64,000 nt of DNA, taken from the NCBI RefSeq assembly GCF_011765465.1, contig NZ_CP050265.1, positions 2,954,425 through 3,018,424 of the forward strand, given 5' to 3'. Shown in pieces: positions 40,072-43,603 of the stretch (its first letter is position 1; each line of letters opens with the position of its first letter). This DNA comes from Erythrobacter sp. (GTDB lineage: Bacteria > Pseudomonadota > Alphaproteobacteria > Sphingomonadales > Sphingomonadaceae). Position numbers and translations under genes: made by a program. The notes under the pieces are model-generated. The model did not search any database. It worked only from the letters and a program-made list of their open reading frames with translations, and was not told the DNA's origin.

Positions 40072-40794
40072 TCAGGCGGTTTCCCGTTCGCGTACCGTGC
40101 GGAACTCGATCTTCTTGTCGTAAGGCGCGCCGAGCACCAGCCGGTTCACGAACACGCCCGGCAGGTGGATCTGGTCGGGATCGAGCGCACCTGCAGGCAC
40201 GATTTCCTCGACCTCGGCGACGCAGACCCTGCCACAGGTCGCAGCGGGCTGGTTGAAGTTACGCGCGGTCTTGCGGAAGACGAGGTTGCCTGTCTCGTCG
40301 GCCTTCCACGCCTTGACGATCGACAGGTCGGCGAAGATCCCGCGCTCGAGAATGTAGGTCGACATCACGCCGTCCGGATCGGGGAATTCCTTGTGCTCCT
40401 TGCCTTCCGCGACCTGCGTGCCGACGCCGGTTTTCGTGTAAAAACCGGGGATGCCCGCGCCGCCCGCGCGCATCCGTTCGGCGAGCGTGCCTTGCGGGCA
40501 AAACTCGACTTCGAGTTCACCGGAGAGGAACTGCCGCTCGAATTCCTTGTTCTCGCCGACATAGGAGGAGATCATCTTCCTCACCTGGCGGGTGCGCAGC
40601 AGCTTGCCGATGCCTTCGTTGTCGATCCCGGCATTGTTGCTGGCGAACGTCAGCCCGGTGACGCCGCTGTCGCGGATCGCGTCGAGCAAGCGTTCCGGGA
40701 TCCCGCACAGGCCGAAGCCCCCGGCTGCGATCAGCATGTCGTTTTCAAGCACGCCCTCGAGGGCGCTGGCGGCGTCGGGGTAGAGCTTGCTCAT
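40072..40794 (-). CDS. scoA: 3-oxoacid CoA-transferase subunit A
   Basis: A 240-residue alpha subunit of the SCOT-type enzyme. The CoA-binding IAAGGFGLCGIPERLLDAI motif, the GLTFASNNAG segment, the GAGIPGFYTKTGVGT motif and the C-terminal PGVFVNRLVLG segment match the family closely. Its partner scoB is on the same strand, separated by the lipoprotein gene at 39249-40061, so the subunit genes are probably cotranscribed but not directly coupled. Confidence 0.93.
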   Translation of the reverse strand: MSKLYPDAASALEGVLENDMLIAAGGFGLCGIPERLLDAIRDSGVTGLTFASNNAGIDNEGIGKLLRTRQVRKMISSYVGENKEFERQFLSGELEVEFCPQGTLAERMRAGGAGIPGFYTKTGVGTQVAEGKEHKEFPDPDGVMSTYILERGIFADLSIVKAWKADETGNLVFRKTARNFNQPAATCGRVCVAEVEEIVPAGALDPDQIHLPGVFVNRLVLGAPYDKKIEFRTVRERETA

Positions 40795-40972
40795 GGATGT
40801 CCTCGATTGTGTCGGGATCGGTCTGGCGGCTGATTAAAGCCTTGTCCCGCCGCTGTCACGCGCGCCCTGCAGGAGTGTTTGGCAAGCGCGGCAAAGGCAG
40901 CGAATCATGCTGCAATGCAAAAGGATTCGCCGCGCGATGCTGCCGAAAATTCGGGCAGATGCCGCCTCCCCG

Positions 40973-40987
40973 TGCACATAATGTGCA
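40973..40987. promoter_or_regulatory. 15-base palindrome upstream of scoA and cdc48
   Basis: TGCACAT at 40973-40979 and ATGTGCA at 40981-40987 are perfect complements around a single A. More GCACAT and TGTGGTGC fragments lie within the next 50 bases. The form suits a dimeric regulator. It sits in the 502-base gap 40795-41296 between scoA (minus) and cdc48 (plus). Confidence 0.4.
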
Positions 40988-41060
40988 AGATTTGGCACAT
41001 GAGGCCCTTTGCGGGCATCATGTGGTGCGTAATTTTCATCAAACCATGCGCCATTCGCAC

Positions 41061-41089
41061 TTGCACAAATTGCCGTTCCGGGGCATATC
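41061..41089 (+). promoter_or_regulatory. candidate promoter of the small RNA
   Basis: TTGCAC at 41061-41066 and CATATC at 41084-41089 are separated by 17 bases. The -10 element is poor, but the predicted start (about 41096) coincides with the first base of the hairpin described for the small RNA. Confidence 0.35.
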
Positions 41090-41095
41090 CAAGCT

Positions 41096-41153
41096 GCCTT
41101 TCAGGCATCCTCTCCCAAACTTTTCTAGCCCGGCCTTCGTGCCGGGCTTTTTT
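41096..41153 (+). ncRNA. candidate trans-acting small RNA
   Basis: A short 5' hairpin (TGCCT at 41096-41100 with AGGCA at 41104-41108, TTC loop) is followed by an unpaired C/U-rich stretch containing CCTCTCCC, then a strong intrinsic terminator. This layout, with an anti-Shine-Dalgarno-like C/U-rich segment between two hairpins, is common among alphaproteobacterial regulatory RNAs. No plus-strand gene lies upstream for the terminator to serve. Confidence 0.45.
41127..41153 (+). terminator. orphan intrinsic terminator
   Basis: AGCCCGGC at 41127-41134 pairs with GCCGGGCT at 41141-41148 around a CTTCGT loop. A run of six T follows (41148-41153). This is the strongest plus-strand terminator in the window, and no coding gene ends upstream of it on that strand. 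Confidence 0.85.
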
Positions 41154-41296
41154 CTGTCCGCTTTCAGCAGGTCGGCGCGTGGCTCGCCGTCCGATGGACG
41201 AACCGGCGCGCCGCGCGCGCGCTTGCCCCTATTTGCAATGCGCGCGCGGCCTTCCTAGCTAGCTGCGAAAGCCCAGATGCAGCCGGAGGATCGCCC

Positions 41297-43603
41297 ATGG
41301 TCGATGCCGAAACCGCCAATAACGCCCGCACCGCGCGACTCCAGGTCGCTCCTGCTCGTCAGGAGGAATCGGGCCAAGGCATAGCGCGTATGCCGCGCTC
41401 GGCGTTCCAGGCGCTCGGCATCACCGAGGGCGACGTGGTCGAGATTGCCGGCAAGCGTTCGACTGCCGCGATCGCCATGGCCGCCTATCCCGAGGACGAA
41501 ACGCTCGACGTGGTGCGCCTCGACGGCCTCCAGCGCGGCAATGCCGAGGCGGCATCCGGCGAGCACGTCGAGATTTCCGCCGCGCGCTCGCGTCCCGCCA
41601 CTCGAGTAGTGTTCGCCCCGGCCCAGCGCGAAATGCGCCTGCAGGGCCCGACCCAGGCATTGAAGCGCAATTTCTTCCGGAAGCCGCTGGTCGCCGGCGA
41701 CCTCGTCGCCACGACGGGCCAACAGCCGGTCCAGAATATGCCGTCCGATGTGCGACAGCTCCTGCGCGCGCCCGCTTATGCGCTGACCCAAATTCGCCTT
41801 TCGGTCGCTTCGACCAGTCCCAAGGGCATCGTCCATATCGACGAGAACACCGAGGTGGAGCTGCGCACCGAATTCGAGGAGCCCCGCGACGCGCGCGCGG
41901 TGGTCAATTACGATGATGTCGGCGGCATGGACGACACGATCCAGCAGCTGCGCGAAATGGTCGAGCTGCCGCTGCGCTATCCCGAGCTGTTCACGCGCCT
42001 CGGTGTCGATCCGCCCAAGGGCGTGCTGCTGCATGGCCCGCCCGGCACCGGCAAGACCCGTCTCGCGCAGGCCGTTGCGAATGAAAGCGACGCGGAATTC
42101 TTCACCATCAACGGGCCGGAAATCATGGGCTCGGGCTATGGCGAATCGGAAAAGCGCCTGCGCGAAGTGTTCGAGGAAGCGAGCCGCGCCGCGCCGGCAA
42201 TCGTCTTCATCGACGAAATCGATTCGATCGCGCCCAAGCGCCAGCAAGTGCCGGGCGAGGCGGAAAAGCGCCTCGTCGCCCAGCTGCTCACGCTGATGGA
42301 CGGGCTCGAGGCGCGCTCAAACCTCGTCGTCATCGCCGCCACCAACCGGCCCGACGCGATCGACGAGGCGCTGCGCCGACCGGGACGCTTCGACCGCGAA
42401 ATCGTCATCGGCGTGCCTGACGAGCGCGGACGGCGGGAAATCCTCTCGATCCACACCCGCGGGATGCCGCTCGAGGACGCGGTCGACTTGAAGGAACTCG
42501 CCCGCGTGACCCACGGCTTCGTCGGGGCGGATATCGCTGCTCTAGCCCGCGAGGCGGCGATCGACGCGGTGCGCCGGATCATGCCGCGATTGGACCTCGA
42601 CGAGAGGACGATCCCGCCCGACGTGCTGGAAGACCTGTGCGTGACCCGCGCCGATTTCCTTTCGGCGCTGAAACGCATCCAGCCTTCGGCCATGCGCGAG
42701 GTCATGGTGCAGGTGCCGAACGTCCAGTGGTCGGACATCGGCGGCGCGAACGAGGCGATCGAGCGGCTCAAGGAAGGGATCGAGCTTCCGCTCAGAAACC
42801 CGCAAGCCTTCCGTCGGCTCGGCATTCGCCCGGCCAAGGGTTTCCTGCTCTACGGCCCGCCCGGTACCGGCAAGACCCTGCTCGCCAAGGCCGTGGCGAA
42901 AGAGGCCGAGGCCAATTTCATCTCGATGAAAAGTTCGGACCTGCTGTCCAAATGGTACGGCGAAAGCGAGCAGCAGATCGCCCGGATGTTCGCCCGCGCG
43001 CGCGCGGTGGCGCCCTGCGTCGTGTTCATCGACGAGATCGACAGCCTGGTCCCCGCCCGCGGCTCCGCGCAGGGCGAGCCGCAGGTGACGGGCCGGGTGG
43101 TCAACACGATCCTCGCCGAAATGGACGGTCTCGAGGAATTGCAGTCGGTCGTCGTGATCGGCGCGACCAACCGCCCAACGCTGGTCGACCCCGCCCTGCT
43201 GCGGCCCGGTCGGTTCGACGAACTCGTCTTCGTCAGCACCCCCGACAAGGCCGGGCGCGAGCACATCCTGCGCATTCATACGGCCAAAATGCCGCTCGCC
43301 GATGATGTCGACCTCGCCACCGTCGCGGCCGAGACCGAGCGGTTCACCGGGGCCGATCTCGAGGACGTGGTGCGCCGCGCCGGGCTCGGCGCGCTGCGCC
43401 GGGTGGGGAGCGACGTGCAGGAGGTCGTCGCCGAGGACTTCAAGGCGGCGCTCAAGGAATCGCGCGCAACGGTCACGGCGAAGATGGAAGACGAATACCG
43501 CCGGATGCAGGGCGAGCTGAAGAAGCGTGCCGCCGAGGTCCAGCCGATCGGATTCGTCGTCCCGGAAACGCTGGAACCCGTGCGCGACAAGAAGCACGGC
43601 TAG
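41297..43603 (+). CDS. CDC48/p97-family AAA ATPase
   Basis: A 768-residue double-AAA ATPase like archaeal VAT and eukaryotic p97/Cdc48. An N-terminal CDC48-type double-psi barrel and four-stranded domain (residues about 1-190; RMPRSAFQALGITEGDVVEI) precedes D1, with Walker A GPPGTGKT near residue 246 and FIDEIDSIAPKR. D2 has its Walker A near residue 519 and FIDEIDSLVPARG. Arginine-finger and sensor motifs (ATNRPDAIDEALRRPGRFDREI) are intact in both. It unfolds proteins using ATP. Bacterial copies are uncommon but present in sphingomonads. Its C-terminus lacks the proteasome-binding HbYX motif. Confidence 0.93.
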   Translation: MVDAETANNARTARLQVAPARQEESGQGIARMPRSAFQALGITEGDVVEIAGKRSTAAIAMAAYPEDETLDVVRLDGLQRGNAEAASGEHVEISAARSRPATRVVFAPAQREMRLQGPTQALKRNFFRKPLVAGDLVATTGQQPVQNMPSDVRQLLRAPAYALTQIRLSVASTSPKGIVHIDENTEVELRTEFEEPRDARAVVNYDDVGGMDDTIQQLREMVELPLRYPELFTRLGVDPPKGVLLHGPPGTGKTRLAQAVANESDAEFFTINGPEIMGSGYGESEKRLREVFEEASRAAPAIVFIDEIDSIAPKRQQVPGEAEKRLVAQLLTLMDGLEARSNLVVIAATNRPDAIDEALRRPGRFDREIVIGVPDERGRREILSIHTRGMPLEDAVDLKELARVTHGFVGADIAALAREAAIDAVRRIMPRLDLDERTIPPDVLEDLCVTRADFLSALKRIQPSAMREVMVQVPNVQWSDIGGANEAIERLKEGIELPLRNPQAFRRLGIRPAKGFLLYGPPGTGKTLLAKAVAKEAEANFISMKSSDLLSKWYGESEQQIARMFARARAVAPCVVFIDEIDSLVPARGSAQGEPQVTGRVVNTILAEMDGLEELQSVVVIGATNRPTLVDPALLRPGRFDELVFVSTPDKAGREHILRIHTAKMPLADDVDLATVAAETERFTGADLEDVVRRAGLGALRRVGSDVQEVVAEDFKAALKESRATVTAKMEDEYRRMQGELKKRAAEVQPIGFVVPETLEPVRDKKHG

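Follow-up and report, generated by a model that had tools for sequence, protein, structure and literature searches.

A probable small RNA gene of the SuhB/MmgR family upstream of cdc48

A Rho-independent terminator that follows no gene raises the question of which transcript it ends. Such a terminator lies in a 502-base gap (40795-41296) of the window, by which we mean the whole 64-kb stretch of Erythrobacter sp. DNA analyzed, between a minus-strand gene for a CoA-transferase subunit (start at 40794, PF01144) and cdc48 (ATG at 41297), whose product contains AAA and CDC48_N domains. The first-pass annotation had described an orphan plus-strand terminator here, and we found both that the terminator is present, with its stem at 41127-41148, and that the gap holds no credible plus-strand gene upstream of it. 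Our reading, to which we assign a probability of about 0.88, is that positions 41093-41155 of the plus strand are a single SuhB/MmgR-type (alpha-r8-like) RNA gene with its own promoter and with Hfq-assisted Shine-Dalgarno pairing as its mode of action; transcription, Hfq binding, targets, and physiological role are predictions. The first-pass annotation had proposed that an RNA of about 58 bases begins at a 5-bp hairpin and acts in trans, which is very close to what the Rfam, conservation, covariation, and promoter evidence indicates, and had overlooked that this RNA belongs to an already known family, suhB/MmgR or alpha-r8.

The plus strand at 41089-41162 matches Rfam family RF00519 (suhB / Makes More Granules Regulator RNA) with 43.9 bits (E 7.7e-8), above the gathering score of 41 bits, and the match is full length, spanning model positions 1-77. 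It is the only gathering-level Rfam match in the whole 64 kb; weak matches to ncS025, ncS54, RyhB, and others were set aside, as each falls short of its gathering score and lies over this terminator. The length of the small RNA is estimated at about 61 to 63 nt, with the 5' end placed to within +/-3 nt. The window genome contains one copy, the next best match (22.7 bits) having been rejected for want of the core. In some other sphingomonads, the RNA is multicopy, with up to seven matches (G303), and the copies often retain the promoter box described below; tandem copies lie a few hundred to about a thousand bases apart (L181, 2001-2351; L172, 2980-4064).

The sequence at 41093-41155 folds with -21.9 kcal/mol (z = -4.05), and none of 200 shuffles folded as well. 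The predicted fold consists of two hairpins with an unpaired C-rich stretch between them, which is the suhB/MmgR order of a weak 5' hairpin, an unpaired core, and a Rho-independent terminator, seen both in this fold and in the pairs over 80 loci. The 5' hairpin, TGCCT-TTC-AGGCA, lies at 41095-41107 and is followed directly by the putative single-stranded pairing core TCCTCTCCCAAA (41108-41119), which is complementary to the Shine-Dalgarno-like GGGAGAGGA. The terminator (41127-41153) combines an 8-bp stem, with 7 G-C pairs of the 8, and a T run. The hairpin had been picked out in the first pass, as had a stretch, CCTCTCCC at 41109-41116, that it took to be unpaired; both are present, and the stretch is unpaired in the fold.

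Short structured RNAs can also act by protein titration, so that the RNA might be an RsmA/CsrA-type sponge instead of pairing with mRNAs. We regard this as extremely improbable: GGA-containing loops are absent, the conserved stretch is rich in C and lacks pairing, and the relatives that have been studied act by pairing with mRNAs (PMC6563040, PMC12559287).

Conservation and covariation of the RNA among sphingomonads

The first-pass annotation would have given up its RNA if there were neither a transcript nor conservation in related genomes, and the conservation half of this is clearly contradicted. A search of relatives found RF00519 matches in 60 of 61 genomes, including all 36 other genomes of the same genus. 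In 34 of these 36, the match is a true orthologue with the AGGCATCCTCTCCC core, whereas in G005 and G013 it is a different sequence; extra or atypical matches within the genus (L053, L054, L056, L058, and L059) lack the core and were not accepted as orthologues. Counting the window's own, 35 genus genomes therefore hold an orthologue with GGCATCCTCTCCC, mostly between the same two neighbors, the neighbor match being partial at some loci where the sequence stretch compared was short. Over these 35 orthologues, the core matches the window sequence with a mean identity of 1.00, the hairpin with 0.96, the promoter box with 0.91, and the terminator with 0.86, compared with 0.41 for the rest of the region.

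Beyond the genus, a covariance model built from 32 genus sequences (R1) matches 102 of 120 family genomes and 77 of 91 genera, and RF00519 matches 106 of the 120, largely at the same places; within the order, R1 matches are almost confined to this one family. Named records that carry both the promoter box and the RNA include Sphingomonas, Sphingobium, Novosphingobium, Novosphingopyxis, Blastomonas, Qipengyuania, Tsuneonella, Aurantiacibacter, Croceibacterium, and Stakelama.

Covariation in other sphingomonads, a check that the first pass had proposed, was assessed over 80 loci, two canonical alpha-r8 sequences among them. In this alignment, 97.5% of cells pair, and changes on both sides of a pair occur in 9 of 13 pairs and 108 cells, compared with 3.9 pairs and 19.5 cells in shuffles, while every slid version of the structure had a far lower covariation score. 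The terminator stem carries compensatory changes in 7 of its 8 pairs, with 99.5% of cells paired; although the alignment, being fitted to the model, favors the structure, the changes in the terminator can be seen plainly in the raw sequences. In the 5' hairpin, 94.3% of cells are paired, and covariation is weak because the hairpin is nearly invariant. The unpaired core is almost invariant while the terminator sequence varies, both in the genus and over the 80 loci, where TCCTCTCC is 97 to 100% conserved and the next C 76%. The evidence for the RNA is far beyond chance.

A conserved predicted promoter points to an RNA gene independent of cdc48

Upstream of the RNA, a conserved box, ATTCGCACTTGCACAA (41053-41068), covers a -35 element, TTGCAC (41061-41066), which is followed after 17 nt by a -10 element, CATATC (41084-41089). 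The -10 element reads CATA, CATT, or CACA in relatives, its first positions being conserved. The first pass had suggested a weak promoter spaced to start at the hairpin; TTGCAC-17-CATATC is indeed weak by the E. coli consensus and yet strongly conserved. The box is a probable binding site of RNA polymerase, a regulator, or both. Across the family, TTCGCANTTGC is found at 73 of 88 loci, 50 to 52 nt upstream of GGCATCC, and exact TTCGCACTTGC occurs twice in the window genome, the other occurrence apparently lying inside a gene.

The position of the RNA allows a different explanation, that the hairpin and terminator are the leader of cdc48 and regulate it by transcription attenuation. They share the strand of cdc48 and lie about 140 bases before it, and this synteny is kept in most genus genomes and many family genomes. 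However, the same box and core are kept at copies with no detected cdc48 nearby (for example, L174 and L175), some of them tandem; the fold offers no alternative antiterminator pairing; and cdc48 appears to have a promoter of its own. Two promoter-like blocks, TTGca and CcTAGCTa, are conserved in genus orthologues between the terminator and cdc48, and they correspond to a probable separate cdc48 promoter at 41233-41260 of the plus strand (TTGCAA, 16 nt, CTAGCT), outside the RNA gene. A cis-acting leader is therefore very unlikely, and since the box TTTCGCACTTGCACAA also accompanies, at a fixed distance, the copies away from cdc48, we favor a stand-alone RNA gene.

Other signals in the gap were also considered. 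A promoter scan suggested sigma-70 sites at 40879 and 40992, of which the latter was rejected as unconserved (identity 0.33). In many genus orthologues, an inverted repeat resembling TTGCA-N-TGCAA precedes the promoter box by about 20 to 25 bases. This repeat, which is degenerate in the window genome (about 41010-41040), is possibly a regulator site. The first-pass annotation had also drawn attention to a perfect palindrome, TGCACAT-A-ATGTGCA (TGCACATAATGTGCA). It is present at 40973-40987, outside the RNA gene, but its significance did not hold up: the exact palindrome is absent from the 34 other genus orthologues, leaving the window genome alone among 35, and in 13.7% of shuffles of the gap at least one 7-bp palindrome arises that is perfect and has a 0- to 3-nt spacer. 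We thus rejected it as a conserved operator; it is irrelevant to the RNA gene and explicable by chance.

The putative pairing core is a sphingomonad variant

The canonical internal unpaired 10-mer of alpha-r8 RNAs, UUUCCUCCCU (PMC12559287), was found in those other families of the order that were sampled, whereas the window and the whole genus have AUCCUCUCCC instead, a C/U-rich motif at the same position that seems to carry a CU insertion. MmgR of Sinorhizobium meliloti (alpha-r8) shares with the RNA described here the RF00519 family, the 5' hairpin, the unpaired C-rich core, and the terminator, and differs in having the UUUCCUCCCU core. SisA-D of Caulobacter crescentus (alpha-r8, with the sponge CrfA) are alike in architecture but number four copies with the canonical core, compared with one copy and AUCCUCUCCC here. 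In addition, alpha-r8 genes usually adjoin an FGase gene (PMC12559287), while this one adjoins the CoA-transferase gene and cdc48, and neither core motif was found near the two FGase loci of the window genome. We did not treat this neighborhood as a strict criterion, as paralogues elsewhere also lack an FGase gene.

Two genomes of the same genus, G008 and G021, carry, besides the ATCCTCTCCC RNA, another one whose core is the canonical CCTCCCTGAAC (L055 and L057, oriented strand, about 2001-2090).

These differences could mean that the sphingomonad RNAs form a distinct family that merely resembles suhB/MmgR, with a hairpin, C-rich core, and terminator acquired by convergence. Besides the missing 10-mer and FGase neighborhood, the canonical-looking copy elsewhere in G008 and G021 and the near failure of R1 to match most other families of the order speak for this. 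On the other hand, sphingomonad loci score up to 61.6 bits to RF00519, R1 weakly finds canonical RNAs (28.4 bits, E 0.0014), and the order of elements is identical, with the hairpin followed directly by the C-rich stretch, CUU, and the terminator; we consider a separate origin unlikely. Because score and architecture agree with the Rfam family and the 10-mer does not, we file the RNA as a sphingomonad variant of that family and not as canonical alpha-r8. The gene is ordinary for sphingomonads except in its putative pairing core, which is unlike that of its relatives. The first-pass observation and interpretation were correct, and the RNA is a member of a known family with a group-specific core.

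Proposed mechanism and candidate targets

Among the closest known RNAs is one annotated suhB in the sphingomonad Sphingopyxis granuli TFA. This SuhB, detected by Northern blotting and dRNA-seq, shares the Rfam family name, is 61 nt long, compared with 61 to 63 nt here, and represses thnR by Hfq-dependent pairing with a 5' UTR (PMC6563040); we liken the two by description, not by sequence, and thnR, a tetralin degradation target, is strain specific. SuhB is abundant when growth is fast (PMC6563040). In Caulobacter, the SisA core pairs with 5' UTRs, as shown by compensatory mutation, and represses mRNAs that include one for a TonB-dependent receptor (PMC12559287), in likeness to the mechanism proposed here.

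In that mechanism, the RNA would be transcribed from its own conserved promoter, end at the Rho-independent terminator, and expose CCUCUCCC between its two hairpins. With Hfq, CCUCUCCC would pair with Shine-Dalgarno regions, similar to GGGAGAGG, in mRNAs from other loci and block their translation. To judge from Sphingopyxis SuhB and Caulobacter SisA, the targets are probably catabolic and uptake genes, which would be repressed during fast growth on a preferred carbon source. An Hfq gene is present in the window genome; it is a single 228-aa reading frame with two tandem Hfq/Sm domains and an acidic tail (L427, 1330-2016; about G000:C1:998830-999255), a doubling that could matter for binding of the RNA.

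A search of 17 genus genomes for the core complement with at most one mismatch found 61 sites besides the RNA gene itself, compared with 28 expected from a third-order Markov model. Control patterns were likewise above expectation (19 versus 7.2, 14 versus 9.4, and 44 versus 26.6), so the genome-wide excess in these genomes is unconvincing and all targets are candidates only. We read 60 sites in context, namely, 59 of the 61 and one weaker site in the window genome. A count by eye places about 19 of these 60 immediately before a start codon, a proximity that is in part to be expected, as the site itself looks like a Shine-Dalgarno sequence. Many of these precede genes whose sequences read, again by eye, as catabolic or uptake functions, including a TauD-like dioxygenase, a branched-chain keto acid dehydrogenase, a TonB receptor, a Rieske dioxygenase, and an alcohol dehydrogenase. 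The best-placed candidate in the window genome is TTTCGGGGAGGATttcATG of a short-chain-dehydrogenase-like gene (G000:C1:1739283). Target genes seldom recur across genomes, with two orthologous pairs seen.

Implications for sphingomonad regulation

For at least 77 genera of one family, which include many pollutant degraders, this RNA now has a place, ends, a promoter, and a pairing core. Its promoter box, being fixed in position, offers a handle on the regulator by which SuhB is linked to growth rate, a mechanism left open by previous work (PMC6563040). With UUUCCUCCCU replaced by AUCCUCUCCC, the targets may differ, and the changed core makes the rewiring of alpha-r8 regulons in sphingomonads a directly testable question. 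We tentatively suggest, at somewhat less than even odds, that sphingomonads replaced the ancestral core and took on the dedicated promoter box, so that a different set of mRNAs and a different regulator or sponge would be wired to this carbon-status RNA than in rhizobia and Caulobacter.
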